A stretch of DNA of 64,000 nt from Hyaloraphidium curvatum (taxonomy: Eukaryota > Monoblepharomycota > Hyaloraphidiomycetes > Hyaloraphidiales > Hyaloraphidiaceae), in assembly GCA_025558095.1 (NCBI GenBank), contig JAIVFI010000021.1, positions 124,001 through 188,000 of the forward strand, given 5' to 3'. Of the stretch, positions 3,316 to 49,174 are shown one piece after another. The notes beneath the pieces were generated by a model. That model saw only the letters and a program-made list of their open reading frames with translations. It did no database searches and was not told the origin of the DNA. Within the stretch, counting starts at the first letter, position 1; each line of letters opens with the position of its first letter. The position numbers and the translations under genes are program-made.

Positions 3316-5548
3316 TCAGTCGTCCGTCGAGTTCGCGGCGTCGACCGCGGTGGCCTTGTGCCTGGTGTGAGCAAGTCCCAGCTCCTCCAGGGCGCCGGGC
3401 AGCGTGGCCTCTTCCTCCTCGGCGAGCGCCATCACCTCCTCCGCCAGCCGCTGGGCTAGGCCGGCGAGGAAAAAGGGCAGGTCACTGTAGTCGCGGCCGT
3501 AGACGATGGCAACGAGGAGCTCCCGCGCCGGCACCTCGCGGCCGAGCGAGTCGAGGAAGACAAAGTTCATGATGCTGTCGACCTCTGATTCCATGACGAG
3601 GACGTAATGCTTGATGCGGCTCAGGCCGTTGTGGTGCCTGCGGGGTTGTAAGCTGACACACGCTGAGGAGCCGTCCAGAAACGTACAAGAAAATGTTGTG
3701 CTGAAAGTGAATGTGAGATGGAGACCAGTATAGGGCCATCTACGACACCAACCTCTTGGAGGGCCGCAAATAGACTGGTGAAGTGAACGTCTTGCAGCGT
3801 GCCGCCCACGCCGATGAAGATCATGGACCTGTGGAAGGCGATCGACGGCCCCGTGCCGACACCCGGCCCGCCGGGCTGCGGAGGTGTGACGGGGCTGGGA
3901 GTCGGCGGCCCCGGCGCCGGCACGGGCAGGGTCGAAAACGCCGCGGCCTGCATCTCGGGGAACAGCAATTCGCTCGGCCTGACCGTCGACGAGCCCGCCG
4001 TCCGCGCGACGCTGGGGGAGTTTGGCCGCCTGGGCAGCGTGGAGGCGAACTGGAACACGTCAAGCTCGAGACCGTTACCCCGCATGGCCGGGCTCCCCGG
4101 GCCCGGACCGAGGGAGCTGCTGCGCGCGCTCGAGCGGCGCTCCTTCTTTGTGCGGGGGTGGTCGTGCTGGTGCGGGTTGTGGGCGACCGCAGGGCGGAAA
4201 CGCGGGCTCCCCAGCGTCCCGCTGGCCCCGTTTTGGGAGAGCGGGGAGACCTCCTCGACAACGCCGTTCTCCGTCGTCGAGTAGACAGAGAGACGCGAGC
4301 GCGGCCGTCCGGCTGTGTTCAAGGAGCCCGACCACGACGCCGAGGTAGGCATTCCGTTGGGTTCCGGCGGCGAGCCCTGGTGGACGCTCGACGGGTTGGT
4401 GGAGGGGCTCGAAACAGAGGGAATGTTGATTGAGGAGCGAACGATGGCCCCGGGGATGCCGCCGGACTCGGCATCGATGAGCACGGGTTTCAAGGCGATC
4501 GTAAAGTCGTCAATGGTCACCTGTCGGAGGCGGTAAGAAGGACGAGAGGTGAACGGCTCGCCAGCCGACCCACCGCGTACTCTCGCGACGTCAGCACAAA
4601 CTTCCTGTCAGGATCGTCGTAGTAGAGCCCGTGGAGGTGGAAGCAGTATTGGTGGTGGTGGTCAAGGGGATTCGGGTGCGCTGCGGGATCCACGCGGTGC
4701 CACCGCTGCGCCTTCAACAGGTCGTCGATAGACAGCGTAAATCTCCCCGTGCTATCTTCCAGCAAGACGTCGTAGTTTGTGGTCTGATCAAGGTGAACGA
4801 GACCGAAGGGCAAAGACGAGGAGAATCATGATGAGGCTTAGCCAGTCCAGTCACGAGCCATCTAACCAACCATGATAGGCGAATCGCCGAGTTTCCCGAG
4901 CATGTCGAGGCTCTTTGCCAGAATGGAGTTCTCCTCGGCCCCTGCGCGAGACCAGGTGTCACGCCAGACTCTGATATGGCCCGGAGCTGGGCTCCAATAC
5001 CCACTGAGCCCGTGGAGAATCTTGAAAACAAGGTGGTTGTACCGCATGAACGGGTCCTTTGCCGCGCATTTCTCGGCAATGAGCTCGGCTGCCACTTGGA
5101 GGTCCGGCGCCGGAGACGGTCCCGTCGAAGCGCGCGACAAATGCTCCCGGATCTGGTCCAGCCAAGACTGCGGCAGCGACAGCAGGTGCGCGACCGTCTC
5201 GGCGAGCTTGTCCAGGAAGCCCCTCCACGTGACGAGCCGCTTGTGCTCGGGACCGGCGGCGAGCGCGACCGAGACCCCGGCGCCGACGATCAGGCAGCCC
5301 GAGCGCGCCTTCAGCAGCTCTATCAGCTCGTCTGGGTGGCCAATTCGCACAGCCGGCTCCGACTCGGCGGGCTGGGGCGACCGCGGTGGTAGTCCGGGGA
5401 GCAGCGCGGCGTGGTCGTCGGAACGCTCCGACGCGGCGGACACGGGACGCGGCAGCGAGTCCTCGTCGGGCGGCGGGTCGACGTCAAAGGCAACCGCAAG
5501 CGGCGAGTGGAAACTCCGGCCCTGCCGCGCGAGGACCGTCGCTGCCAT
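3316..5548 (-). CDS. SIR2-like domain protein
   Basis: A five-exon gene of about 663 residues on the minus strand: 5548-4871, 4783-4574, 4520-3753, a 14-nt microexon at 3700-3687, and 3637-3316. The order of motifs is that of the SIR2-like (SIR2_2-type) NAD-binding fold: GCLIVGAGVSVALA (~residue 100), WRGFLDKLAE, PIM joined to TTNYDVLLE across the first intron, HLHGLYYDDPD, FVLTSREYA, and later MIFIGVGGTLQD. A proline- and serine-rich insert of about 200 residues separates the last two motifs. Classical sirtuin zinc-finger cysteines are not visible. Proteins with this fold bind or hydrolyse NAD, and bacterial relatives act in anti-phage defence. The role in fungi is not established. The ATG lies 12 codons before RSFHSPLAV. 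It is convergent with the MAP kinase. Confidence 0.8.
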
Positions 5549-30783: not shown

Positions 30784-32487
30784 CTACCTCCCCGGCATGA
30801 ACGACCCCCGCTCCGCCAACGGCCACCCCTCCAGCCCCCCATCCCAGTCCCTCGGATCCTCCACCGCCCTCGCCAGCGCCTCCATCCCCGGCACGCACCC
30901 CGCGCTCCCCCTCAGCGCGCGGAGGCCCCCGTCCAGCCGCTTCCTTACGAACCCGCGGAGTTCGGGCTGGTCGGGCGGCAGGTCGCGGAGGAGCATGGAG
31001 AGGAGGAGGGAGAGCTTGGCGGTGCTGGTCCAGACGGTGCAGGGGAGGTGGTCCAGGGCGGTGGGGGAGGAAGCGAGGAGGGAGGAGAGGCGGTCGCATG
31101 CGGCGAGGGCGGCGTCGAGCGCGGGGACGAAGGATTCGGAGGAGAGCCACGGGTGCAGGGCGGCGGCATCGGCGACCCTTGCAGGGCACAGGCAGAGGGC
31201 GCGGAGGGTGTGCAGGTGCAGGAGGAGGTGTTCCGGCTGGGCGTGGCGGAACCGGGAGGGGGCGTCGGGGAGGAGGGTCCATGCCGGTGGGGAGGCAGGG
31301 GTGGGGCGGGCGGCGAGGAGGTCCAGGGCCGAGGCGGCGGCGTCCATGAGGTCCGGCGCGGGGGAGGAGCGGAAGGTGTGGAGGTACGCGAGCATGGCGA
31401 TGCCGTCGAGGTGGGGGAAGAGGACGGGGATGGCTCCAGGGGCAGAGAGCATCGAGGCGGTGACGGCGGGGGCGGCGGGTGCGCCGTAGGGGCGGGGGAG
31501 GGGAACATCGGCGACCAGCTCATCGGGGACGATCCAGGTGCCCGTGGACGAGCGCAGGATGCCAGAGCGGTCGTAGGCGTAGACGAACCAGCGCAGACGC
31601 CGCGCGAGCTCGCCGTCGTGGCCCTCGGCCGCGGGGTCCGTGGACGCGGCCGCGGCGGCAGCCAGGCGGAAAAGGTGCTCGGCCGGTCTCCGGTCCGGGT
31701 TGTAGAAGGTTGCGATGAAGGCAAGGTGCACAAGGGCCACGGCATCCCAGAGCAGGCTCCGCCCGTCGAGCGGGGCGGCGTGGAGGGAGGGAACGGGCAC
31801 GAGGGAGCTTTGCACGAGCTCCGTGGCCGTGGCCGTACAGGCAGCCCCCCATTTCATGCACTCTGCCGCGCTCAGGCTGCCCGGGGCCGCGTCCAAGGTG
31901 CGCTGCGAGGTCCCACTTCCCGTGCCAACCGAGGAACCGCGCGCATCGTCGTTGCCCACCCCGTCCTCTCCAATCTCATCGGCAAGATAGAAGAGCGCCA
32001 GCGCCAGCACGGCGTTCGCGGCAGCCGCGGGCATATAACCGGCGTCTCCCACCAAACGCAAGTCCACGAGAGGGAGGGTCGCATAGGCCGAAGCGGAGTA
32101 CACCTCCATCGTGCGCTGCCGCAAATCGTCGGGCACGTCTACAACGCGTCCGGTCGCGGAGCTTCGAGAGGGCGCCGGGCTCGGCAGCGGCGGCGGCGAA
32201 CGCGTCTTCCCGGCCACCGGCCCGGGCGGCACGCACGCATGCCGCTTCCTGGGCGTGCCCCGCAGCGCCGCTTCGCCGAGCGCCAGCAATTTCGCGAGAT
32301 CCGCGGCATCGGGCGCCTCGTACTCGCATTCGCCGCCGCGGGAGGCGCACCGCCCGCACCGCAGGCCCGCGAACCGGTCCGCGGGATCCCCCTCACGCCA
32401 GCCCTCGGCCGCGGCGAGGATGAGTAGCTCGATGTCGCAGACGCGACGTCGTTGCCGGCAGTACGCGCAGATCAGTCGGGGGCGCAT
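30784..32487 (-). CDS. Zn2Cys6-type transcription factor with extended zinc-cluster loop
   Basis: A single-exon gene of 567 residues. The N-terminus MRPRLICAYCRQRRRVCD gives C-x2-C-x6-C. The second half, CGRCASRGGECEYEAP, gives C-x2-C-x6-C about 27 residues later, whereas 5-12 residues is normal; no GT-AG intron fits inside the gap. The middle region has helices like the fungal transcription-factor regulatory domain (LLWDAVALVHLAFIATFYNP, LARRLRWFVYAYDRSGILRS). It should be a nuclear DNA-binding regulator of unknown targets. Its ATG at 32487 lies only 51 bases from the left end of the Crypton array, so its native promoter has been moved ~16.3 kb away. Expression may depend on element sequence. 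Confidence 0.8.
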   Translation of the reverse strand: MRPRLICAYCRQRRRVCDIELLILAAAEGWREGDPADRFAGLRCGRCASRGGECEYEAPDAADLAKLLALGEAALRGTPRKRHACVPPGPVAGKTRSPPPLPSPAPSRSSATGRVVDVPDDLRQRTMEVYSASAYATLPLVDLRLVGDAGYMPAAAANAVLALALFYLADEIGEDGVGNDDARGSSVGTGSGTSQRTLDAAPGSLSAAECMKWGAACTATATELVQSSLVPVPSLHAAPLDGRSLLWDAVALVHLAFIATFYNPDRRPAEHLFRLAAAAAASTDPAAEGHDGELARRLRWFVYAYDRSGILRSSTGTWIVPDELVADVPLPRPYGAPAAPAVTASMLSAPGAIPVLFPHLDGIAMLAYLHTFRSSPAPDLMDAAASALDLLAARPTPASPPAWTLLPDAPSRFRHAQPEHLLLHLHTLRALCLCPARVADAAALHPWLSSESFVPALDAALAACDRLSSLLASSPTALDHLPCTVWTSTAKLSLLLSMLLRDLPPDQPELRGFVRKRLDGGLRALRGSAGCVPGMEALARAVEDPRDWDGGLEGWPLAERGSFMPGR

Positions 32488-32819
32488 TTTTGTCTGCCAA
32501 CGAGCGTGTATGGTTCATTTCCGCAAGGAAGACAATATACAGAGCATAATAATCACGGGCTTAGGCGGACGGTCAGGTCCGCGGCCAGGCTAACCGGGCG
32601 GGCGGCCAGCTCTAACGCGCTGACCGCACAAACGCTACCCCGAAGCAACCGCCCGAACGCGGGCAAACACCCCCGCGCGGGCCCCGCCGACAGCGCAGAG
32701 CCGGACAGCTGTCGCGCGCCGAGCTCCCCGGGCCGGCGCTTCGCGCCGCGGAGGCCCGGTGCGCGAGCGGCGCCGCATCGCCCGCGGGCAAACGCTGACA
32801 GGTCGCGCGCGCGGGTTCC

Positions 32820-32890
32820 CCCGCGGTCCTCCCGCGCCGCGGTCCTCCCGCGCCGCGGACCCCATAGATTCGGCGGACCCCATAGATTCG
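32820..32890 (+). repeat. Two short tandem duplications just upstream of the recombinase start (copy 1)
   Basis: A 16-bp unit (CCGCGGTCCTCCCGCG) is repeated at 32821-32836 and 32837-32852. An 18-bp period unit (CGGACCCCATAGATTCG) is repeated at about 32856 and 32874. They end four bases before the ATG at 32894 and recur in all three copies, so they may be part of the element's promoter or 5' leader. Confidence 0.75.
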
Positions 32891-32893
32891 CGC

Positions 32894-35800
32894 ATGGACA
32901 CCCTCGCCGCCGCGGCGGCCGCGCTGGAGCCCGTCGCGGGCCCAGGTGCCGGCGGTGACGTCGACTCGACCCCCGCCCCGCGCGCCGCGCCCAAGCCGCG
33001 CAGGCCCGCCGCCGGAGCCGCCCCCGCCCGGGAGACGGGAGAAAGGAAGCGGAAGAGCGCGGGGGAGGGCGAGGGCGGCGCCGCTGCGGGCCCCGTCGCC
33101 TCCGCCGGCGGCCTGCAGGGCCCACCGAAGCGTCGGATCGCCGCGACCAAGCCCCCGTCGGCCAAGGCGCCCGGCGAACCGGGGCGCAAGCAGCCGGCAG
33201 GCATACGCAAGAAGGATCTGGCATCGGCCGGTGCTCCGGCAGCCCGCGGAGGTGCGGCGGGCGCCCCGGACGCGGCGGGCTCGGGAGGCAGCGGAGCGAC
33301 GCGCAGGAGCAAGGTTGGCGACGCCGTCGTCCTGCACGAGGCGTCCCCGGGCGGGAATGATGCCGCTGCATCCGGTGCCGGGGCTCGCGCTCGCGGAGGA
33401 GGTGCTGGGGGCGACGGCGACGGCGCGCGGACCGGAGCTCCGGCTGGAGGGACGCCGGTCAAGGCAGGAACCCCTCCCGGCGGTCAGGAAGCGCAGAATC
33501 CTGGCGGCCAGGGATCAGATGGATCCGCTCCCGCGGCAACGGCTGCCTCGGTCCCTCCGGCGGAGGCTCCGGCTCGACCGACGGCGCGGAAGCCAAAGAG
33601 GAAGCGCGCCGCCGAAGACGACGGGGATGCGGAGCGAGCCGGTGCCGAGCCCGGTGCAGACGGCGCGGACGGAGGCTTGGGCCCCGCCGAGCGCAGCGAG
33701 CTCGAGGAGGCGCTCCGTTCCGGCCCCGCCGTGTCGGACGACCTGGAGCGCCGGGCCGCCCTCGCCGCGGACGAGGCCTGGAAGAACAGGGAGAACAGCG
33801 GGACCACGGACAGCATCTACGCCTCGCACTTTGAGCACTACAAGCTCTGGTGCGGCGGGAACGGCGTGGAGCCCTTCCCCGTCCTGCCGGCCAAGGCGGT
33901 GCTGTTCGCCGACTGGACGATGAAGCGGCCGCGCCTCAAGTCCGGCGTGAGGAAGGGCTCGAAGAAGGGGCGCACGGCGGACCAGGGCCCAGCAACCCTG
34001 GCGGCTTTGGAAGAGCTGTTCGTCACGGGCACTCGGATTGGGCCGGGTGTGGTCGGGGGCGTTCTCAACGCCCTCGAGTTCTTGCGCAAGGCCACGGCCA
34101 TCGACTTCCCCGAGGCCGATTTCCCGCAGGCCCACCGCCCGCTCCGAAGCGATCCTCGGGTGACGCGGATCGAGAAGCTCTCGAAGCAGAACAGCGCGTC
34201 GCGGCAGGCAAACTCGGAGGAGATCAAGTCGGCCGGCGGCGCGTCCAAGACCTACAACCAGCAGCAGTACCGCGACGTCGCGGACTACCATCTGCTGCGA
34301 GCGGCGAACGGCAAGAAGGCTGCCGTCACGCCGCAGGAGGCCGCCGCGGGGGTGCGCAACCGGGCACTGCACTTGATCTCGGGATCCTTGGCGGATCGGT
34401 CGTCGGACGTGCGCCCGACCGCGCTCTCGGACGTGCAGTTGCGCGAGGTGACTCTCCCAAAGACTGATCGCATTGTGGAGGTGGGCAGTCAATCTCCGTG
34501 GGTCGCGTGAAGCTTCCTAACGCTTGTTTGCCCGCCCAGCTCGGCGTCATCCTCGACAACAGCTCGAAAACAAACAAGGAAGGGGAGATCTTCGAGAAGG
34601 CGATGTTGCGGAACCCGGACGTCCGGATCTGCCCCATCAACTCGCTCGCCCTGCACAGCTATGCAACGTACCACATCCTACAGGAGCGGCCCTCGGAGCT
34701 TGCCCCCGTTTTTGACGCCAAGAGCCCGCCGTACGGCCGCAGGGACTGGTACAAGATCCCGCTGTTTCCTGGGAACGGAGAGAAGGGGGAGATCGCGTAC
34801 AAGAGTGGGTGGCCGCGGACTTCCCGCCTCTCCGTGAACTCACGGGCCCTTCTCCGCCGCAGCGCACTGGAAAGCAGTCACGGGAGCACACACGGCGCTC
34901 GGGCTCTTCGACGTCACGAAGAAGACCCACGCTGGGCGCTCGTACGCTCCGCGTCGCGCGCATGCCAAGGACTGTCCCGACGAGGACATGATGGCCCTGG
35001 GGCGGTGGAGCAACGGCAAGATCTTCCGGGAGCGATACTTGACGTCGATGCCGTGGCCGGCGGTCATCGCGACCGCCGACTCCGACGCCTCCAACCCGGC
35101 GGCCTACTACGTCCCGCGTGCGCAGCTCGGTGGGTGCCGTCGAATTGACACCTGGCGAGGCGCCACTGACGCAGCACGATCGATCGCGTCGATCCTGCAG
35201 AGCCGCCTGCGGAGCTCCAGCAACGCATCATGCCTTGGGCAGACGCCTCGCTCGCTGCGTACAAGGAGCGCCTCGAACTGGACCCGTCCAAGTACCGCGA
35301 CCCGTGCTGTGAGATGACCTGCAAGAGGTTCATTTTGGAGCGGAAGGTGCGGGGCGTCCCTTTTCCTCGGTCGTGCGTGCATGCGGGCGGTTGCTGACCA
35401 CCCTGCTTTACTCTTGCAGATCCTCCTTCAAGACGCCCCGGAGCTCATCAACCATTTCGCCCCCGAGTTCAGCAAGGACGGCTACGATGCGCACGCGGAC
35501 GACGGCCTCCCCTTCGTCTTCAAGACCGAGCTCTTCCTCTCCACCGAGTACCTGGTATGGCACCGCGAAGCGCTCGCCAAGATCGGCGAGCTGCGCGAGG
35601 CCGTGCGCCACGTGGCTGGGCCGAAGGAGTTTGTGAACGCATCGTGCCGCTCTTTCAGCAGCAGAACCTACTCTTCGGGCGCCTCGAGGAGGCTGTCTCG
35701 CGCAAGCCGGACGGGGCGTCGGCAGACCTGCGCACCGCGGTGCGCGAGGACGTGCGCGAGGACATGACCGTCCTCTACAACACGCTCGTGGAGACCCTCG

Positions 35801-36717
35801 ACTCCACCATGGAGCAGGCCATGGAGCATCTGACCGAGACGGTCACGGACGTGGTGCAGGACGTGTTCCGCAAGGCTGTGCCTTCCTTGGCGGCGGCCCT
35901 GCAGGCCCAGGTGCCGGCCGTCTCGGCCGGAAGCCCGGGCGTCTCCACCTCCTCCCCTTCGGCCCCGGCCCTCGCCAATCCATCGGCAACGGAGCTCCCG
36001 GTGCTCCTTCCCCGCCCGCAGCCCGTTTCCCAGGACGGTGGCGCCGGCCTGGGTGTTCCCCGCCCCCTGCTTTGCTTCCCCCGGCCTCCGAGCTTTCCCC
36101 CCTCCGGAAGCCCGGTCTCCGCCCTTGCTCCGCAGCCCAGCACCTCTGCAGCTCCCTCAGAACCTGCCCAGGGACCGGCAGCTGCCCCCTCGGCCGGCGC
36201 TGCGGCGGCAACGGGCCTCGACGCCGCCCAGGCGGAGAAGCGGGCGCTGGAGGCGTCGCGGCTGCGGCAAAAGTACGGAGCCAAGCTCCAGGGCATCGAC
36301 ATTGTTTTCCACAACGGGCAGATGGTACCGGCGTACGAGCTTGCCGCCGGGAAGCTGTCGATCGAGGACGCCTACAACGAGATCTACGTCGGGCGCGATG
36401 GCAAGATCTCGGTGGAGGAGCTGGACAGGGACTTTGGGCCCAAGTGGCGGCGGAACAACAACCGCATCCAAACCGAATACGGAAGGCGGAAAGCGATCAA
36501 GGAGGAGCTGGAGAAGATCCGGCGCGGCCCGCCCGCAAAGTCGCCGACGGCGGCGCTCCGGGCCCTCAAGGACAGGTTCACGGACAATGGGGCGGAGCTG
36601 ACGGCGCGGCAGGTGAGCGACCGGCTCCAGAAGGCGGCGCGGGACGCCGCCAAGGCTGCGAAGGAGGCGGCGGGCGGGGCGGGGACGGGTGCGGCCGCGC
36701 AGGGGGCTGCGGCGTGA
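32894..36717 (+). CDS. Crypton-type tyrosine recombinase with GCR1_C-like domain, copy 1
   Basis: Six exons (32894-34480, 34540-34804, 34863-35129, 35201-35346, 35420-35611, 35659-36717) give about 1,171 residues; every junction keeps frame. Residues 1-300 are low complexity. The core has all tyrosine-recombinase residues by my count: R502 in LADRSSDVRPTALSD, H640 and R643 in KKTHAGRS, W666 in LGRWS, Y676 in RERYLTSMP. The R643-W666 distance (23) equals that in Cre. The C-terminus has a GCR1_C-like DNA-binding module: KLSIEDAYNEIYVGRDGKIS and FGPKWRRNNNRIQTEYGRRK. The enzyme should cut and join DNA through a covalent 3'-phosphotyrosine link and mobilise the element. An in-frame ATG at 32759-side upstream extension exists, but MDTLAAAAAALEP is the more natural start. 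Related host proteins include Ndc10, but repetition and mobility signs favour a Crypton. Confidence 0.85.
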
Positions 36718-37012
36718 CGGAAGGCGGGTCTTCTTGGGACATGGGGCAGTAGCGAGGTAGCGGAGGATCTTTTCGTTCTTTTCCCTGTGTTTGGTTCGGT
36801 TCAAGAATTGTAGGCCTCAGAAATCCGGTCAATCCAGTCCAGTCTGCCAGCGGGCGGCGCCCGCGGGCTCGCAAAACCTCCAGGAGGCCGGCAAGGCCGC
36901 CAGTCGCGGGCACCCTGCGCTGGCAAGAGCCGCGCTGGGCTCGTTGTCCGATTTTGCGGTCCGTTGCCGCGCTGTATCGCGGGGGTAGAGGGGTGGCGGC
37001 GAACCCACGGCA

Positions 37013-37350
37013 CTGCCCCCCCACATCCCCCTCCCGCCGGCGGGAACCCCCGGAAAATCCGAACGGCCAGCGAGTTCAATACCGCGGGCACCTCGAACGG
37101 GGATTTGTCCGGCCCTTCGACCCATCCATCCCGTGTTTCGCCTCCGGAAGAACCGGCGCCCGACCGACGGTCCCCCACATCCCCCCTCCCGCCGGCGACA
37201 GCTCCCGGAAAACCCCAACGGCCAGCGAGCCCAATGCCGTGGGCACCTCGAACGGCGATTTGTCGAGGCTTCGACCCGTCCGCCCGGTGTTTCGCCTCGA
37301 AGAGCCGGCTTCCGCCAGACGGCCCTCCCCATCCCCCCTCCCGCCGCCCT
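37013..37350 (+). repeat. Degenerate ~153-bp tandem repeat inside the element (copy 1)
   Basis: Two full units and the start of a third begin near 37015, 37169 and 37321, each opening with cccacatcccccctcccgcc. Shared blocks include ACGGCCAGCGAG, GGCACCTCGAACGG, GATTTGTC and GTGTTTCGCCTC. The same block occurs 5,428 and 10,852 bases further on in copies 2 and 3. Confidence 0.75.
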
Positions 37351-37847
37351 CCGGTCCCTCTGGGAGCTGGTCCAAACCGGTGCAGCAACGGTGCCCGGCC
37401 TCGGCGCGACGCACGCCGGCCGGCGGACCCGGCGGCGCCGCGGGAACACGGCACCTCCCGCGGGGGGTTCCCGCCCGCGGCCGCAATTGCGGGCTCCCCC
37501 ACCGCCACGCCCGCCGCCGCGGGCCCGCACGCCGGGGCGCCGCACGGCCCGACCGGTGCCGGAGTCGCAGCGCCGCGCGGCGGCCCGGGGGGAGCGGCGG
37601 TGCGGCGCGCGGGAGCGCGGCCGGCTTCGCCCCTCCGCGGTCGGGGCCAAACACCGCCGCCGCCGCGGCCGCCGCCGACCACGGCGCCGCGCAGGCGGAT
37701 CCCGCGGCCGCGCTGCAGGCCGGGCGGGCGGGGGGCGGCGGCCGTGGGGCAGCGGGGGAAAGGCGGTCCGGCTCCGGGGGAATGTTACACGCCCTGGGTG
37801 GGTTCGAGTCTGGCGGGGCCAATTAGAGCTGACCGCGGAACTGGCCG

Positions 37848-37873
37848 GGGAATGTTATGCGCATAACATTCCC
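37848..37873. repeat. Perfect 26-bp palindrome near the right end of copy 1
   Basis: GGGAATGTTATGC is followed directly by its reverse complement. A half-copy (GGGGAATGTTACACGCCC) lies ~60 bases upstream. The dyad is ~90 bases from the element end, between GGTCAG motifs, where a dimeric recombinase or accessory factor could bind. This function is inferred. Confidence 0.9.
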
Positions 37874-38317
37874 TGCGGTCAGGGCGGCTAACGATCGGGC
37901 GGTCAGGTCTAGTTCAATTAGGCGGCGGTCAGGGGTTTGGGGGCTGACCACGGTGCACACACACAGAGCATAATAATCACGGGCTTAGGCGGACGGTCAG
38001 GTCCGCGGCCAGGCTAACCGGGCGGGCGGCCAGCTCTAACGCGCTGACCGCACAAACGCTACCCCGAAGCAACCGCCCGAACGCGGGCAAACACCCCCGC
38101 GCGGGCCCCGCCGACAGCGCAGAGCCGGACAGCTGTCGCGCGCCGAGCTCCCCGGGCCGGCGCTTCGCGCCGCGGAGGCCCGGTGCGCGAGCGGCGCCGC
38201 ATCGCCCGCGGGCAAACGCTGACAGGTCGCGCGCGCGGGTTCCCCCGCGGTCCTCCCGCGCCGCGGTCCTCCCGCGCCGCGGACCCCATAGATTCGGCGG
38301 ACCCCATAGATTCGCGC

Positions 38318-41300
38318 ATGGACACCCTCGCCGCCGCGGCGGCCGCGCTGGAGCCCGTCGCGGGCCCAGGTGCCGGCGGTGACGTCGACTCGACCCCCCG
38401 CCCCGCGCGCCGCGCCCAAGCCGCGCAGGCCCGCCGCCGGAGCCGCCCCCGCCCGGGAGACGGGAGAAAGGAAGCGGAAGAGCGCGGGGGAGGGCGAGGG
38501 CGGCGCCGCTGCGGGCCCCGTCGCCTCCGCCGGCGGCCTGCAGGGCCCACCGAAGCGTCGGATCGCCGCGACCAAGCCCCCGTCGGCCAAGGCGCCCGGC
38601 GAACCGGGGCGCAAGCAGCCGGCAGGCATACGCAAGAAGGATCTGGCATCGGCCGGTGCTCCGGCAGCCCGCGGAGGTGCGGCGGGCGCCCCGGACGCGG
38701 CGGGCTCGGGAGGCAGCGGAGCGACGCGCAGGAGCAAGGTTGGCGACGCCGTCGTCCTGCACGAGGCGTCCCCGGGCGGGAATGATGCCGCTGCATCCGG
38801 TGCCGGGGCTCGCGCTCGCGGAGGAGGTGCTGGGGGCGACGGCGACGGCGCGCGGACCGGAGCTCCGGCTGGAGGGGCGCCGGTCAAGGCAGGAACCCCT
38901 CCCGGCGGTCAGGAAGCGCAGAATCCTGGCGGCCAGGGATCAGATGGATCCGCTCCCGCGGCAACGGCTGCCTCGGTCCCTCCGGCGGAGGCTCCGGCTC
39001 GACCGACGGCGCGGAAGCCAAAGAGGAAGCGCGCCGCCGAAGACGACGGGGATGCGGAGCGAGCCGGTGCCGAGCCCGGTGCAGACGGCGCGGACGGAGG
39101 CTTGGGCCCCGCCGAGCGCAGCGAGCTCGAGGAGGCGCTCCGTTCCGGCCCCGCCGTGTCGGACGACCTGGAGCGCCGGGCCGCCCTCGCCGCGGACGAG
39201 GCCTGGAAGAACAGGGAGAACAGCGGGACCACGGACAGCATCTACGCCTCGCACTTTGAGCACTACAAGCTCTGGTGCGGCGGGAACGGCGTGGAGCCCT
39301 TCCCCGTCCTGCCGGCCAAGGCGGTGCTGTTCGCCGACTGGACGATGAAGCGGCCGCGCCTCAAGTCCGGCGTGAGGAAGGGCTCGAAGAAGGGGCGCAC
39401 GGCGGACCAGGGCCCAGCAACCCTGGCGGCTTTGGAAGAGCTGTTCGTCACGGGCACTCGGATTGGGCCGGGTGTGGTCGGGGGCGTTCTCAACGCCCTC
39501 GAGTTCTTGCGCAAGGCCACGGCCATCGACTTCCCCGAGGCCGATTTCCCGCAGGCCCACCGCCCGCTCCGAAGCGATCCTCGGGTGACGCGGATCGAGA
39601 AGCTCTCGAAGCAGAACAGCGCGTCGCGGCAGGCAAACTCGGAGGAGATCAAGTCGGCCGGCGGCGCGTCCAAGACCTACAACCAGCAGCAGTACCGCGA
39701 CGTCGCGGACTACCATCTGCTGCGAGCGGCGAACGGCAAGAAGGCTGCCGTCACGCCGCAGGAGGCCGCCGCGGGGGTGCGCAACCGGGCACTGCACTTG
39801 ATCTCGGGATCCTTGGCGGATCGGTCGTCGGACGTGCGCCCGACCGCGCTCTCGGACGTGCAGTTGCGCGAGGTGACTCTCCCAAAGACTGATCGCATTG
39901 TGGAGGTGGCAGTCAATCTCCGTGGGTCGCGTGAAGCTTCCTAACGCTTGTTTGCCCGCCCAGCTCGGCGTCATCCTCGACAACAGCTCGAAAACAAACA
40001 AGGAAGGGGAGATCTTCGAGAAGGCGATGTTGCGGAACCCGGACGTCCGGATCTGCCCCATCAACTCGCTCGCCCTGCACAGCTATGCAACGTACCACAT
40101 CCTACAGGAGCGGCCCTCGGAGCTTGCCCCCGTTTTGACGCCAAGAGCCCGCCGTACGGCCGCAGGGACTGGTACAAGATCCCGCTGTTTCCTGGGAACG
40201 GAGAGAAGGGGGAGATCGCGTACAAGAGTGGGTGGCCGCGGACTTCCCGCCTCTCCGTGAACTCACGGGCCCTTCTCCGCCGCAGCGCACTGGAAAGCAG
40301 TCACGGGAGCACACACGGCGCTCGGGCTCTTCGACGTCACGAAGAAGACCCACGCTGGGCGCTCGTACGCTCCGCGTCGCGCGCATGCCAAGGACTGTCC
40401 CGACGAGGACATGATGGCCCTGGGGCGGTGGAGCAACGGCAAGATCTTCCGGGAGCGATACTTGACGTCGATGCCGTGGCCGGCGGTCATCGCGACCGCC
40501 GACTCCGACGCCTCCAACCCGGCGGCCTACTACGTCCCGCGTGCGCAGCTCGGTGGGTGCCGTCGAATTGACACCTGGCGAGGCGCCACTGACGCAGCAC
40601 GATCGATCGCGTCGATCCTGCAGAGCCGCCTGCGGAGCTCCAGCAACGCATCATGCCTTGGGCAGACGCCTCGCTCGCTGCGTACAAGGAGCGCCTCGAA
40701 CTGGACCCGTCCAAGTACCGCGACCCGTGCTGTGAGATGACCTGCAAGAGGTTCATTTTGGAGCGGAAGGTGCGGGGCGTCCCTTTTCCTCGGTCGTGCG
40801 TGCATGCGGGCGGTTGTGACCACCCTGCTTTACTCTTGCAGATCCTCCTTCAAGACGCCCCGGAGCTCATCAACCATTTCGCCCCCGAGTTCAGCAAGGA
40901 CGGCTACGATGCGCACGCGGACGACGGCCTCCCCTTCGTCTTCAAGACCGAGCTCTTCCTCTCCACCGAGTACCTGTTATGGCACCGCGAAGCGCTCGCC
41001 AAGATCGGCGAGCTGCGCGAGGCCGTGCGCCACGTGGCTGGGCCGAAGGAGTTTGTGAACGCATCGTGCCGCTCTTTCAGCACAGCAGAACCTACTCTTC
41101 GGGCGCCTCGAGGAGGCTGTCTCGCGCAAGCCGGACGGGGCGTCGGCAGACCTGCGCACCGCGGTGCGCGAGGACGTGCGCGAGGACATGACCGTCCTCT
41201 ACAACACGCTCGTGGAGACCCTCGACTCCACCATGGAGCAGGCCATGGAGCATCTGACCCGAGACGGTCACGGACGTGGTGCAGGACGTGTTCCGCAAGG

Positions 41301-42146
41301 CTGTGCCTTCCTTGGCGGCGGCCCTGCAGGCCAGGTGCCGGCCGTCTCGGCCGGAAGCCCGGGCGTCTCCACCTCCTCCCCTTCGGCCCCGGCCCCTCGC
41401 CAATCCATCGGCAACGGAGCTCCCGGTGCTCCTTCCCCGCCCGCCAGCCCGTTTCCCAGGACGGTGGCGCCGGCCTGGGTGTTCCCCGCCCCCTGCTTTG
41501 CTTCCCCCGGCCTCCGAGCTTTCCCCCCTCCGGAAGCCCGGTCTCCCGCCCTTGCTCCGCAGCCCAGCACCTCTGCAGCTCCCTCAGAACCTGCCCAGGG
41601 ACCGGCAGCCTGCCCCCTCGGCCGGCGCTGCGGCGGCAACGGGCCTCGACGCCGCCCAGGCGGAGAAGCGGGCGCTGGAGGCGTCGCGGCTGCGGCAAAG
41701 TACGGAGCCAAGCTCCAGGGCATCGACATTGTTTTCCACAACGGGCAGATGGTACCGGCGTACGAGCTTGCCGCCGGGAAGCTGTCGATCGAGGACGCCT
41801 ACAACGAGATCTACGTCGGGCGCGATGGCAAGATCTCGGTGGAGGAGCTGGACAGGGACTTTGGGCCCAAGTGGCGGCGGAACAACAACCGCATCCAAAC
41901 CGAATACGGAAGGCGGAAAGCGATCAAGGAGGAGCTGGAGAAGATCCGGCGCGGCCCGCCCGCAAAGTCGCCGACGGCGGCGCTCCGGGCCCTCAAGGAC
42001 AGGTTCACGGACAATGGGGCGGAGCTGACGGCGCGGCAGGTGAGCGACCGGCTCCAGAAGGCGGCGCGGGACGCCGCCAAGGCCTGCGAAGGAGGCGGCG
42101 GGCGGGGCGGGGACGGGTGCGGGCCGCGCAGGGGGCTGCGGCGTGA
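38318..42146 (+). pseudogene. Tyrosine recombinase gene of copy 2, broken by many 1-2-base indels
   Basis: Compared with copies 1 and 3: an extra C at about 38,396 shifts the frame soon after the start; a G is lost at the first donor (~39,907); a T is lost at ~40,135; CA is added at ~41,080; and single bases are gained or lost at about 41,260, 41,332, 41,394, 41,442, 41,546, 41,610, 41,698, 42,084, 42,128 and 42,172. The net change is +4, equal to the difference in unit length. The catalytic exon with THAGR and RWSNGKIFRERY is unchanged. No functional full-length protein could be made. Such dense indels without substitutions look like residual consensus errors in a repeat that could not be polished, so true inactivation is not proven. 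Confidence 0.7.
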
Positions 42147-43275
42147 CGGAAGGCGGGTCTTCTTGGGACATGGGCAGTAGCGAGGTAGCGGAGGATCTTT
42201 TCGTTCTTTTCCCTGTGTTTGGTTCGGTTCAAGAATTGTAGGCCTCAGAAATCCGGTCAATCCAGTCCAGTCTGCCAGCGGGCGGCGCCCGCGGGCTCGC
42301 AAAACCTCCAGGAGGCCGGCAAGGCCGCCAGTCGCGGGCACCCTGCGCTGGCAAGAGCCGCGCTGGGCTCGTTGTCCGATTTTGCGGTCCGTTGCCGCGC
42401 TGTATCGCGGGGGTAGAGGGGTGGCGGCGAACCCACGGCACTGCCCCCCCACATCCCCCTCCCGCCGGCGGGAACCCCCGGAAAATCCGAACGGCCAGCG
42501 AGTTCAATACCGCGGGCACCTCGAACGGGGATTTGTCCGGCCCTTCGACCCATCCATCCCGTGTTTCGCCTCCGGAAGAACCGGCGCCCGACCGACGGTC
42601 CCCCACATCCCCCCTCCCGCCGGCGACAGCTCCCGGAAAACCCCAACGGCCAGCGAGCCCAATGCCGTGGGCACCTCGAACGGCGATTTGTCGAGGCTTC
42701 GACCCGTCCGCCCGGTGTTTCGCCTCGAAGAGCCGGCTTCCGCCAGACGGCCCTCCCCATCCCCCCTCCCGCCGCCCTCCGGTCCCTCTGGGAGCTGGTC
42801 CAAACCGGTGCAGCAACGGTGCCCGGCCTCGGCGCGACGCACGCCGGCCGGCGGACCCGGCGGCGCCGCGGGAACACGGCACCTCCCGCGGGGGGTTCCC
42901 GCCCGCGGCCGCAATTGCGGGCTCCCCCACCGCCACGCCCGCCGCCGCGGGCCCGCACGCCGGGGCGCCGCACGGCCCGACCGGTGCCGGAGTCGCAGCG
43001 CCGCGCGGCGGCCCGGGGGGAGCGGCGGTGCGGCGCGCGGGAGCGCGGCCGGCTTCGCCCCTCCGCGGTCGGGGCCAAACACCGCCGCCGCCGCGGCCGC
43101 CGCCGACCACGGCGCCGCGCAGGCGGATCCCGCGGCCGCGCTGCAGGCCGGGCGGGCGGGGGGCGGCGGCCGTGGGGCAGCGGGGGAAAGGCGGTCCGGC
43201 TCCGGGGGAATGTTACACGCCCTGGGTGGGTTCGAGTCTGGCGGGGCCAATTAGAGCTGACCGCGGAACTGGCCG

Positions 43276-43301
43276 GGGAATGTTATGCGCATAACATTCC
43301 C
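43276..43301. repeat. 26-bp palindrome near the right end of copy 2
   Basis: Identical to the palindrome of copy 1, displaced by 5,428 bases. It lies about 90 bases before the copy 2/copy 3 junction. Confidence 0.9.
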
Positions 43302-43745
43302 TGCGGTCAGGGCGGCTAACGATCGGGCGGTCAGGTCTAGTTCAATTAGGCGGCGGTCAGGGGTTTGGGGGCTGACCACGGTGCACACACACAGAGCATA
43401 ATAATCACGGGCTTAGGCGGACGGTCAGGTCCGCGGCCAGGCTAACCGGGCGGGCGGCCAGCTCTAACGCGCTGACCGCACAAACGCTACCCCGAAGCAA
43501 CCGCCCGAACGCGGGCAAACACCCCCGCGCGGGCCCCGCCGACAGCGCAGAGCCGGACAGCTGTCGCGCGCCGAGCTCCCCGGGCCGGCGCTTCGCGCCG
43601 CGGAGGCCCGGTGCGCGAGCGGCGCCGCATCGCCCGCGGGCAAACGCTGACAGGTCGCGCGCGCGGGTTCCCCCGCGGTCCTCCCGCGCCGCGGTCCTCC
43701 CGCGCCGCGGACCCCATAGATTCGGCGGACCCCATAGATTCGCGC

Positions 43746-46700
43746 ATGGACACCCTCGCCGCCGCGGCGGCCGCGCTGGAGCCCGTCGCGGGCCCAGGTG
43801 CCGGCGGTGACGTCGACTCGACCCCCGCCCCGCGCGCCGCGCCCAAGCCGCGCAGGCCCGCCGCCGGAGCCGCCCCCGCCCGGGAGACGGGAGAAAGGAA
43901 GCGGAAGAGCGCGGGGGAGGGCGAGGGCGGCGCCGCTGCGGGCCCCGTCGCCTCCGCCGGCGGCCTGCAGGGCCCACCGAAGCGTCGGATCGCCGCGACC
44001 AAGCCCCCGTCGGCCAAGGCGCCCGGCGAACCGGGGCGCAAGCAGCCGGCAGGCATACGCAAGAAGGATCTGGCATCGGCCGGTGCTCCGGCAGCCCGCG
44101 GAGGTGCGGCGGGCGCCCCGGACGCGGCGGGCTCGGGAGGCAGCGGAGCGACGCGCAGGAGCAAGGTTGGCGACGCCGTCGTCCTGCACGAGGCGTCCCC
44201 GGGCGGGAATGATGCCGCTGCATCCGGTGCCGGGGCTCGCGCTCGCGGAGGAGGTGCTGGGGGCGACGGCGACGGCGCGCGGACCGGAGCTCCGGCTGGA
44301 GGGGCGCCGGTCAAGGCAGGAACCCCTCCCGGCGGTCAGGAAGCGCAGAATCCTGGCGGCCAGGGATCAGATGGATCCGCTCCCGCGGCAACGGCTGCCT
44401 CGGTCCCTCCGGCGGAGGCTCCGGCTCGACCGACGGCGCGGAAGCCAAAGAGGAAGCGCGCCGCCGAAGACGACGGGGATGCGGAGCGAGCCGGTGCCGA
44501 GCCCGGTGCAGACGGCGCGGACGGAGGCTTGGGCCCCGCCGAGCGCAGCGAGCTCGAGGAGGCGCTCCGTTCCGGCCCCGCCGTGTCGGACGACCTGGAG
44601 CGCCGGGCCGCCCTCGCCGCGGACGAGGCCTGGAAGAACAGGGAGAACAGCGGGACCACGGACAGCATCTACGCCTCGCACTTTGAGCACTACAAGCTCT
44701 GGTGCGGCGGGAACGGCGTGGAGCCCTTCCCCGTCCTGCCGGCCAAGGCGGTGCTGTTCGCCGACTGGACGATGAAGCGGCCGCGCCTCAAGTCCGGCGT
44801 GAGGAAGGGCTCGAAGAAGGGGCGCACGGCGGACCAGGGCCCAGCAACCCTGGCGGCTTTGGAAGAGCTGTTCGTCACGGGCACTCGGATTGGGCCGGGT
44901 GTGGTCGGGGGCGTTCTCAACGCCCTCGAGTTCTTGCGCAAGGCCACGGCCATCGACTTCCCCGAGGCCGATTTCCCGCAGGCCCACCGCCCGCTCCGAA
45001 GCGATCCTCGGGTGACGCGGATCGAGAAGCTCTCGAAGCAGAACAGCGCGTCGCGGCAGGCAAACTCGGAGGAGATCAAGTCGGCCGGCGGCGCGTCCAA
45101 GACCTACAACCAGCAGCAGTACCGCGACGTCGCGGACTACCATCTGCTGCGAGCGGCGAACGGCAAGAAGGCTGCCGTCACGCCGCAGGAGGCCGCCGCG
45201 GGGGTGCGCAACCGGGCACTGCACTTGATCTCGGGATCCTTGGCGGATCGGTCGTCGGACGTGCGCCCGACCGCGCTCTCGGACGTGCAGTTGCGCGAGG
45301 TGACTCTCCCAAAGACTGATCGCATTGTGGAGGTGGGCAGTCAATCTCCGTGGGTCGCGTGAAGCTTCCTAACGCTTGTTTGCCCGCCCAGCTCGGCGTC
45401 ATCCTCGACAACAGCTCGAAAACAAACAAGGAAGGGGAGATCTTCGAGAAGGCGATGTTGCGGAACCCGGACGTCCGGATCTGCCCCATCAACTCGCTCG
45501 CCCTGCACAGCTATGCAACGTACCACATCCTACAGGAGCGGCCCTCGGAGCTTGCCCCCGTTTTTGACGCCAAGAGCCCGCCGTACGGCCGCAGGGACTG
45601 GTACAAGATCCCGCTGTTTCCTGGGAACGGAGAGAAGGGGGAGATCGCGTACAAGAGTGGGTGGCCGCGGACTTCCCGCCTCTCCGTGAACTCACGGGCC
45701 CTTCTCCGCCGCAGCGCACTGGAAAGCAGTCACGGGAGCACACACGGCGCTCGGGCTCTTCGACGTCACGAAGAAGACCCACGCTGGGCGCTCGTACGCT
45801 CCGCGTCGCGCGCATGCCAAGGACTGTCCCGACGAGGACATGATGGCCCTGGGGCGGTGGAGCAACGGCAAGATCTTCCGGGAGCGATACTTGACGTCGA
45901 TGCCGTGGCCGGCGGTCATCGCGACCGCCGACTCCGACGCCTCCAACCCGGCGGCCTACTACGTCCCGCGTGCGCAGCTCGGTGGGTGCCGTCGAATTGA
46001 CACCTGGCGAGGCGCCACTGACGCAGCACGATCGATCGCGTCGATCCTGCAGAGCCGCCTGCGGAGCTCCAGCAACGCATCATGCCTTGGGCAGACGCCT
46101 CGCTCGCTGCGTACAAGGAGCGCCTCGAACTGGACCCGTCCAAGTACCGCGACCCGTGCTGTGAGATGACCTGCAAGAGGTTCATTTTGGAGCGGAAGGT
46201 GCGGGGCGTCCCTTTTCCTCGGTCGTGCGTGCATGCGGGCGGTTGCTGACCACCCTGCTTTACTCTTGCAGATCCTCCTTCAAGACGCCCCGGAGCTCAT
46301 CAACCATTTCGCCCCCGAGTTCAGCAAGGACGGCTACGATGCGCACGCGGACGACGGCCTCCCCTTCGTCTTCAAGACCGAGCTCTTCCTCTCCACCGAG
46401 TACCTGGTATGGCACCGCGAAGCGCTCGCCAAGATCGGCGAGCTGCGCGAGGCCGTGCGCCACGTGGCTGGGCCGAAGGAGTTTGTGAACGCATCGTGCC
46501 GCTCTTTCAGCAGCAGAACCTACTCTTCGGGCGCCTCGAGGAGGCTGTCTCGCGCAAGCCGGACGGGGCGTCGGCAGACCTGCGCACCGCGGTGCGCGAG
46601 GACGTGCGCGAGGACATGACCGTCCTCTACAACACGCTCGTGGAGACCCTCGACTCCACCATGGAGCAGGCCATGGAGCATCTGACCGAGACGGTCACGG

Positions 46701-47569
46701 ACGTGGTGCAGGACGTGTTCCGCAAGGCTGTGCCTTCCTTGGCGGCGGCCCTGCAGGCCCAGGTGCCGGCCGTCTCGGCCGGAAGCCCGGGCGTCTCCAC
46801 CTCCTCCCCTTCGGCCCCGGCCCTCGCCAATCCATCGGCAACGGAGCTCCCGGTGCTCCTTCCCCGCCCGCAGCCCGTTTCCCAGGACGGTGGCGCCGGC
46901 CTGGGTGTTCCCCGCCCCCTGCTTTGCTTCCCCCGGCCTCCGAGCTTTCCCCCCTCCGGAAGCCCGGTCTCCGCCCTTGCTCCGCAGCCCAGCACCTCTG
47001 CAGCTCCCTCAGAACCTGCCCAGGGACCGGCAGCTGCCCCCTCGGCCGGCGCTGCGGCGGCAACGGGCCTCGACGCCGCCCAGGCGGAGAAGCGGGCGCT
47101 GGAGGCGTCGCGGCTGCGGCAAAAGTACGGAGCCAAGCTCCAGGGCATCGACATTGTTTTCCACAACGGGCAGATGGTACCGGCGTACGAGCTTGCCGCC
47201 GGGAAGCTGTCGATCGAGGACGCCTACAACGAGATCTACGTCGGGCGCGATGGCAAGATCTCGGTGGAGGAGCTGGACAGGGACTTTGGGCCCAAGTGGC
47301 GGCGGAACAACAACCGCATCCAAACCGAATACGGAAGGCGGAAAGCGATCAAGGAGGAGCTGGAGAAGATCCGGCGCGGCCCGCCCGCAAAGTCGCCGAC
47401 GGCGGCGCTCCGGGCCCTCAAGGACAGGTTCACGGACAATGGGGCGGAGCTGACGGCGCGGCAGGTGAGCGACCGGCTCCAGAAGGCGGCGCGGGACGCC
47501 GCCAAGGCTGCGAAGGAGGCGGCGGGCGGGGCGGGGACGGGTGCGGCCGCGCAGGGGGCTGCGGCGTGA
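43746..47569 (+). CDS. Crypton-type tyrosine recombinase with GCR1_C-like domain, copy 3
   Basis: The same six-exon gene as in copy 1, displaced by 10,852 bases: 43746-45332, 45392-45656, 45715-45981, 46053-46198, 46272-46463 and 46511-47569. It encodes ~1,171 residues with the full R-H-x-x-R-W-Y set. One residue differs: GGAPV here against GGTPV in copy 1, near residue 187. It is a potentially active recombinase. With copy 1 it provides two intact sources that could mobilise all three units, including copy 2 in trans. Confidence 0.85.
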
Positions 47570-48699
47570 CGGAAGGCGGGTCTTCTTGGGACATGGGGCA
47601 GTAGCGAGGTAGCGGAGGATCTTTTCGTTCTTTTCCCTGTGTTTGGTTCGGTTCAAGAATTGTAGGCCTCAGAAATCCGGTCAATCCAGTCCAGTCTGCC
47701 AGCGGGCGGCGCCCGCGGGCTCGCAAAACCTCCAGGAGGCCGGCAAGGCCGCCAGTCGCGGGCACCCTGCGCTGGCAAGAGCCGCGCTGGGCTCGTTGTC
47801 CGATTTTGCGGTCCGTTGCCGCGCTGTATCGCGGGGGTAGAGGGGTGGCGGCGAACCCACGGCACTGCCCCCCCACATCCCCCTCCCGCCGGCGGGAACC
47901 CCCGGAAAATCCGAACGGCCAGCGAGTTCAATACCGCGGGCACCTCGAACGGGGATTTGTCCGGCCCTTCGACCCATCCATCCCGTGTTTCGCCTCCGGA
48001 AGAACCGGCGCCCGACCGACGGTCCCCCACATCCCCCCTCCCGCCGGCGACAGCTCCCGGAAAACCCCAACGGCCAGCGAGCCCAATGCCGTGGGCACCT
48101 CGAACGGCGATTTGTCGAGGCTTCGACCCGTCCGCCCGGTGTTTCGCCTCGAAGAGCCGGCTTCCGCCAGACGGCCCTCCCCATCCCCCCTCCCGCCGCC
48201 CTCCGGTCCCTCTGGGAGCTGGTCCAAACCGGTGCAGCAACGGTGCCCGGCCTCGGCGCGACGCACGCCGGCCGGCGGACCCGGCGGCGCCGCGGGAACA
48301 CGGCACCTCCCGCGGGGGGTTCCCGCCCGCGGCCGCAATTGCGGGCTCCCCCACCGCCACGCCCGCCGCCGCGGGCCCGCACGCCGGGGCGCCGCACGGC
48401 CCGACCGGTGCCGGAGTCGCAGCGCCGCGCGGCGGCCCGGGGGGAGCGGCGGTGCGGCGCGCGGGAGCGCGGCCGGCTTCGCCCCTCCGCGGTCGGGGCC
48501 AAACACCGCCGCCGCCGCGGCCGCCGCCGACCACGGCGCCGCGCAGGCGGATCCCGCGGCCGCGCTGCAGGCCGGGCGGGCGGGGGGCGGCGGCCGTGGG
48601 GCAGCGGGGGAAAGGCGGTCCGGCTCCGGGGGAATGTTACACGCCCTGGGTGGGTTCGAGTCTGGCGGGGCCAATTAGAGCTGACCGCGGAACTGGCCG

Positions 48700-48725
48700 G
48701 GGAATGTTATGCGCATAACATTCCC
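48700..48725. repeat. 26-bp palindrome near the right end of copy 3
   Basis: Identical to the dyads of copies 1 and 2, displaced by 10,852 bases from the first. It lies about 90 bases before the array's right boundary. Confidence 0.9.
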
Positions 48726-48817
48726 TGCGGTCAGGGCGGCTAACGATCGGGCGGTCAGGTCTAGTTCAATTAGGCGGCGGTCAGGGGTTTGGGGGCTGAC
48801 CACGGTGCACACACACA

Positions 48818-49174
48818 CGAAAAGCGAGTCGTTCATTTCGCCGCGCTCCCCTCGCCTCGACCCCCGAATCCCCGACGCGAAAAGGTAGCAATTGGTGGAC
48901 GTTGGACCGGCCAGGGCGCAGAGGAACTATCCTCGTCCGTGGACACGAACTAAAGCCAGGAAATACGCGTGCGGATTCAAAGACTCACGAAGGACAGATC
49001 GACTCGGTCGTGACCGTTATTCCCGCCCATCTCCCAGGCCTTCACGCTGCGTGCACACCATTTCGATAGCGAGCAACTAGACTTGTCGTGAAGGGGGTTC
49101 TCAATTGCATTGCCACTGACCCAAAATACACGGAGCTTCGGTCGGATTGCTCATCCGCAGTGAGGCACGTTTCG
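48818..49174. other. Right flank of the array, no gene seen
   Basis: About 350 bases of lower-GC sequence follow the array. Before insertion, this DNA would have joined the Zn2Cys6 gene's upstream region, so it may hold that gene's old promoter. A 62-codon frame at 48892-49080 has no support. Nothing else is recognised. Confidence 0.5.

Follow-up and report, generated by a model that had tools for sequence, protein, structure and literature searches.

A spacer-free tandem array of a CryptonF-type tyrosine-recombinase transposon in Hyaloraphidium curvatum, probably built by recombination at its att sites

The window analysed here is a stretch of 64,000 nucleotides of contig JAIVFI010000021.1 of Hyaloraphidium curvatum (C21; C-numbers denote contigs of the same assembly, GCA_025558095.1, and a window position is the C21 coordinate minus 124000). 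On its forward strand, at 32539..48817, it carries three units of a Crypton-type tyrosine-recombinase transposon, with ACA at both outer ends of the array. Unit 1 (32539..37962, 5424 bases), unit 2 (37963..43390, 5428 bases) and unit 3 (43391..48814, 5424 bases) lie in direct orientation with zero spacer and with start-to-start distances of 5424 and 5428 bases, in agreement with a preliminary description of this DNA, which had reported three head-to-tail units of 5.42 kb joined without spacer. With repeats of such length, a chance origin is out of the question. Units 1 and 3 differ by a single substitution in 5424 bases, A/G at unit position 914, where unit 2 shares the G of unit 3. Alignment of unit 2 with unit 1 shows 15 indel events and 2 substitutions, mainly within short base runs, and unit 2 looks like unpolished long-read sequence. 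No inverted repeats of at least 60 bases were found within 30000-52000, and comparison by eye of the first and last 300 bases of the unit revealed no terminal inverted match; like CryptonF elements, the unit has neither terminal inverted repeats nor long terminal repeats. The right part of each unit also holds a ~177-base stretch twice, 154 bases apart and with 83% identity (37018-37346 in unit 1).

The recombinase gene was modelled by setting introns by eye from GT..AG and the reading frame. The model of unit 1 (32894..35767, + strand; exons 32894-34480, 34540-34804, 34863-35129, 35201-35346 and 35420-35767) and that of unit 3 (43746..46619, + strand, same structure) encode 870 aa each. The preliminary description had credited the array with two intact recombinase genes, which did not hold, since both are truncated by a frameshift at unit position 3102, where they have one G fewer than the copies on C22 and C2 (full and truncated), leaving GCR1_C out of frame. 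The full reading frame is kept in none of the three units; units 1 and 3 retain an open recombinase domain, and the GCR1_C part survives in a different frame. The copy on C22 is intact and yields 1187 aa from a five-exon model, and the gene model of the full copy on C2 gives 1182 aa. A Pfam search with the C22 protein at E 0.1 returned two families only, NDC10_II (PF16787, tyrosine recombinase; residues 505-768, E 7.6e-17) and, at the C-terminus, GCR1_C (PF12550, DNA-binding; residues 1069-1124, E 2.2e-08), thereby bearing out the earlier assignment to the Crypton type. We take PF16787 to be the family covering Crypton recombinases. R507, H640, R643 and Y676 of the C22 protein, which stand in fitting motifs, are candidates for the R-H-R-Y catalytic tetrad, picked by eye rather than from an alignment.

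A profile search of the genome placed NDC10_II at 34540..34797 in unit 1, at 45392-45649 in unit 3 and, with a weaker score under the cut-off, in unit 2 at 39964-40113; it placed GCR1_C, not in the main frame, at 36358..36528, 41785-41955 and 47210-47380 (all + strand). At E 0.01 the NDC10_II profile gave 8 genome matches, all in copies of the element, that of unit 2 being under the cut-off. GCR1_C gave 10 matches, 2 of them outside element copies; these two (C22:420878 and C2:639258) are without an NDC10_II match and are possibly host regulators or remnants of other Cryptons. Two further open reading frames (ORFs) of unit 1 had zero Pfam domains, and no reverse transcriptase was found inside Crypton copies among the matches listed from the genome search; as in CryptonF, neither reverse transcriptase nor DDE transposase was found within the element. 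Residues 300-860 of the recombinase had no protein relative at E 0.001 among 8000 candidates, and a PDB search with a 594-aa part of the protein gave 0 matches at E 10.

A 3-kb query against the H. curvatum genome gave 8 matches. Besides the three units of the window, these are two units on C49, a copy on C22 and a pair on C2, of which one is full (98.7%) and the other truncated (93.7% over 3.9 kb). Those on C22 and C2 are single units. The preliminary description had named a fixed single-copy host gene as one finding that would overturn it, and the additional copies on C22 and C2 speak otherwise. The C22 copy differs from unit 1 by only 7 substitutions in 5.4 kb, a sign of recent activity. 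In all five array units (three on C21 and two on C49) a G at 3102 and 5 bases at 2638 are missing, both of which the C22, C2 full and C2 truncated copies possess, and these two private changes point to a single founder copy.

The units join exactly. The junction of units 1 and 2 (37952..37978, + strand), which we reconstruct as attP, reads GGTG(CA)5GAGCATAATAATC, and that of units 2 and 3 (43380..43406, + strand) has the same sequence; all three internal junctions, two on C21 and one on C49, show GGTG(CA)5GAGCATAATAAT, that is, the two ends of the element joined to each other. At the left end of the array (attL, 32529..32541, + strand) the target half AAGACAATAT is followed by ACA, and at the right end (attR, 48808..48827, + strand) (CA)5 is followed by the target half CGAAAAGCGA, so that the right outer end, GGTG(CA)5CGAAAAGCGA, and the junctions fix 32539 and 48817 with ACA at both ends, as had been proposed. 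Read outwards from the element, the three insertions compare as follows: on C21, AAGACAATATACA precedes GAGC on the left and GGTG(CA)5 precedes CGAAAAGCGA on the right; on C22, AAAGACAATATACACA precedes GAGC and GGTG(CA)4 precedes CGACTC; on C2, TGATTTACA precedes GAACAT and GGTG(CA)5 precedes TATG. One ACA is present per end at each of the three insertion sites having both ends. On C22 the CA run is split one repeat earlier, with one CA to the left of the element and four at its right end, which is expected from exchange inside the CA run. The reconstructed targets are AAGACAATAT-ACA-CGAAAAGCGA for C21, AAAGACAATAT-ACA-CGACTC for C22 and TGATTT-ACA-TATG for C2. Thus, from these sequences, the attP GGTG(CA)5GAGCATAATAATC seems to exchange with T-ACA targets over a 3-base overlap, and the reconstructed att sites support the exact joining described earlier, which would be expected of recombinase products. 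The C2 insertion is, by eye, also bordered by an imperfect repeat of ~25 bases (TCCCGTTTGCCCTGCCTGATTTACA / TCCCGCTTGCCCGCACTGTCTGATTTACA) around C2 568462 and 573843.

Sequences that may bind the recombinase lie close to these ends. A 26-bp perfect palindrome, GGGAATGTTATGCGCATAACATTCCC, is a candidate binding site near the right end of each unit (37848..37873, 43276-43301 and 48700-48725), and its copies, one per unit, are the sole perfect palindromes of at least 18 bp in the window. A candidate half-site adjoining the left crossover, GCATAATAATCACGG (32544..32558, + strand), starts at unit base 6 and has 11 of its 15 bases as in the palindrome arm; a second arm-like sequence lies at unit position 5238 on the minus strand, and five weaker matches (10/15) occur inside the unit. 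With 4 arm-like matches in the remaining 47.7 kb of the window, 0.0008 would be expected in the first 20 positions. The motif CGGTCAG is present 8 times per unit on either strand, 6 of the 8 lying in the terminal 200 bases at either end (binomial 4e-6, a value uncorrected for a motif picked post hoc). The palindrome, the half-sites and the CGGTCAG clusters are described here as candidate core and arm sites.

The array is present a second time in the assembly. Contig C49 (28,112 bases) has both flanks of the C21 array but two units, which are identical, letter for letter, to units 1 and 3 of C21; a separate genomic locus was ruled out, as the flanks on both sides are those of C21. The two contigs are identical for 4.9 kb to the left and 3.7 kb to the right of the array. 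Farther out, MAFFT alignment revealed 37 indel events (one of them a 38-base C run) and 14 mismatches mostly adjoining indels, and blastn, in three long alignments of the flanks, gave 2 mismatches and 42 gap openings. A protein whose gene lies right of the array has records on two contigs. Copy number thus differs within the assembly: either the culture had two- and three-unit molecules, or the assembler made one of the two. The proposal of the preliminary description that the array can expand or contract stands at the level of the assembly, where the same flanks enclose two units on C49, and is less secure for the DNA itself. A fault by which the third unit or the two-unit contig arose in assembly, the true number being fixed, is a serious possibility, although we lean against it; it would concern the unit count only and is compatible with a tandem made by the recombinase. 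C49 is a 28-kb contig that duplicates the C21 flanks with scattered indels and mismatches, unit 2 appears unpolished, and collapse of units 2 and 3, both with G at 914, would mimic C49. Duplicate contigs are, moreover, not special to this locus: the short contig C51 (19557-20729) and the long contig C10 (51379-52551) share an equal-score gene match in the same 697-aa frame, so C49 may not be the sole short contig duplicating a long one. Weighing the other way, C21 and C49 each have at least two units, which meet at an identical, exact junction and differ as A/G at 914, so that a tandem of two is supported twice, and the C22 and C2 copies occur singly.

The targets on C21 and C22 share the sequence AAGACAATATACACGA, and the element is inserted at the same base of this motif, give or take one CA, which suggests, as far as the sequences go, a target preference. 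Their 1-kb flanks are otherwise dissimilar. The 15-mer AGACAATATACACGA (AAGACAATATACACGA minus its first A) has 30 sites in 31.9 Mb (9 exact, 6 with one mismatch and 15 with two), as compared to 8 for the reversed pattern used as control, and the occupied C22 site is itself among those with two mismatches. Thirteen of the 15 best sites continue into one dispersed repeat, at its fixed end; at the other two the sequence diverges after ~24 bases (L041) or soon past the motif (L048). A 911-base query of this repeat gave 35 matches, 26 of which start in its first 20 bases, and the opposite end is highly variable; a fixed start with a variable other end is the pattern of a truncated retroposon. Among the matches listed, no reverse transcriptase was clearly linked to the repeat, and its identity as a long interspersed nuclear element carrying its own reverse transcriptase was not borne out. 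One listed reverse transcriptase match lies, by eye, ~4 kb from a repeat copy on C41, which we took as coincidence because equal-score matches elsewhere have no repeat tail nearby. Target duplications of the repeat are weak (p 0.06 or less at 2 of 14 loci, ~1 being expected by chance). At the array, GTTCATTTC occurs at 32513..32521 and again at 48831-48839 (+ strand), a possible target duplication of the short retroposon tail entered by the element, noted by eye and without statistics. It is improbable that the shared motif has a cause other than recombinase preference, such as open chromatin, or that one of the C21 and C22 loci is a duplicate of the other. Such explanations draw on the small number of known insertion sites (three), one of which is without the motif; against them, the 1-kb flanks of C21 and C22 give no alignment of more than 20 bases, and the insertions occupy an identical base of the motif, to within one CA.

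Taken together, we consider it likely that the window holds a tandem array of a CryptonF-type transposon made by recombinase-mediated events at att sites. First, strand exchange over the 3-base ACA overlap, between attP (the joined ends) and attB (the target), would have brought the element into a short retroposon-like repeat, at its tail. The single copy could then have grown into an array when a circle, as a monomer or a multimer, integrated next to it, or alternatively by attR x attL exchange between sister chromatids. From two units on, unequal homologous recombination could also alter the unit number, and such later change cannot be told apart from recombinase-driven change. The anatomy, the exact junctions, the private changes common to the units and the target sites are observed directly, and from them we infer both the recombinase as agent and the circle as intermediate. 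As the array genes have no in-frame GCR1_C, intact copies such as that on C22 may supply recombinase in trans; the frameshift suggests that present activity, if any, would come from intact copies elsewhere or from the truncated protein.

Several points weigh against an origin of the array through the recombinase. The evidence consists of assembly contigs, and the circle is proposed from their sequence. Every array gene is frameshifted, unit 2 too being without the G at 3102 and carrying more indels besides. The left end of the C2 copy is GAACAT and not GAGCAT, and the C2 target (TGATTT-ACA-TATG) is without the retroposon motif, so the target preference is not absolute. The overlap is 3 bases here as compared to 6-bp terminal repeats in most fungal CryptonF elements in the available text of PMC3212892. 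Microhomology in the CA run might, in principle, permit tandem duplication without a recombinase. The alternative built on this last point, a single Crypton insertion amplified at the CA run by slippage during replication or by tandem duplication through microhomology and later altered by unequal homologous recombination, without participation of the recombinase, appears unlikely. The CA-rich ends do supply short microhomology, near-identical units exchange easily by homology and the array genes carry the frameshift; however, at all three internal junctions the breakpoints fall on both ends of the element, which a chance duplication would not require, and the left outer end of the C21 array has just 3 bases (ACA) in common with its right end. 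Three independent insertions were ruled out by the private changes shared by the five units and by the A/G difference common to both contigs.

A more far-reaching version of the recombinase-driven origin can be put forward only tentatively, and we think it rather less probable than its opposite: that the Crypton homes site-specifically to retroposon tails of one family and is kept as a live array, to which att x att recombination, in trans from intact copies, adds and removes units within one culture, the two- and three-unit contigs being real molecules and the units ready-made circles.

Neighbouring features were also recorded. The first part of an ORF at 30784-32487 (- strand) resembles a zinc cluster (Zn_clus E 0.35, below the cut-off); this ORF starts 51 bases from the array's left end, which places 16 kb of Crypton DNA immediately upstream of it. 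A CoA-transferase ORF lies in the array flank, and the matching protein is encoded on contig C7 in two pieces with 100% and 99% identity. No RNA family reached its gathering score in the 64-kb window. Elsewhere in the genome, reverse transcriptase matches at C11:506118, 517197, 528275 and 539435 share one orientation and a spacing of ~11.1 kb, possibly a tandem retroelement array, and other regular series occur at C37:308710-313541, C12:482837-491294 and C36:187941-190709, with periods of ~2.0, 2.0 and 1.2 kb. Mobile DNA may often be arrayed in tandem in the H. curvatum genome or in its assembly.

CryptonF elements, reportedly described from fungi and oomycetes by Goodwin et al. in 2003, are the closest known counterpart. 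The H. curvatum element appears, from its domain make-up, to work like CryptonF and is placed there on that basis. It shares with the CryptonF of Kojima and Jurka (2011, PMC3212892), as far as the available text goes, the combination of recombinase and GCR1_C and the absence of inverted or long terminal repeats; short direct repeats stand at the ends in both, of different length, and movement as a circle is a proposal for both, made in that paper by analogy with prokaryotic elements. In contrast to those elements, which have terminal direct repeats of 4 or 6 bp and fungal hosts in Basidiomycota, Ascomycota and Zygomycota, it has a host in Monoblepharomycota, a 3-bp ACA beside a CA run at all three sites, a spacer-free tandem array and, for two of three insertions, the same retroposon-like tail site as target. 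The word 'tandem' occurs once in the available text of PMC3212892, in the reference list. No description of tandem Crypton arrays was found in the literature searched, judged by titles and abstract starts, and no paper on such an element was found, judged by titles, in the literature searched on Hyaloraphidium or chytrid transposons.

Bacterial integrative elements and phages with tyrosine integrases can integrate in tandem beside a resident copy. The present element resembles them in attP x attB logic, a short overlap, exact tandem junctions and candidate binding sites near the ends, but differs in its eukaryotic NDC10_II-type recombinase, and no transfer genes were found in the unit ORFs tested. 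Starships of Pezizomycotina are likewise fungal tyrosine-recombinase elements, but are, in the sources available, giant and laden with cargo genes, whereas the H. curvatum unit has 5.4 kb and no other domain in the ORFs tested.

In our judgement, the element is of a kind already known, and what is new is the spacer-free tandem CryptonF-type array, its two-unit version on C49, the reconstructed att sites, the shared retroposon-tail target and the end motifs. The element and its copies supply proposed attP, attB, attL and attR sites as well as candidate binding sites, a donor copy that is intact and a probable variant in copy number, thereby making the circle model of Crypton movement testable. 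The three insertion sites suggest that preferential insertion into the tail of another mobile element is possible for a eukaryotic recombinase transposon.

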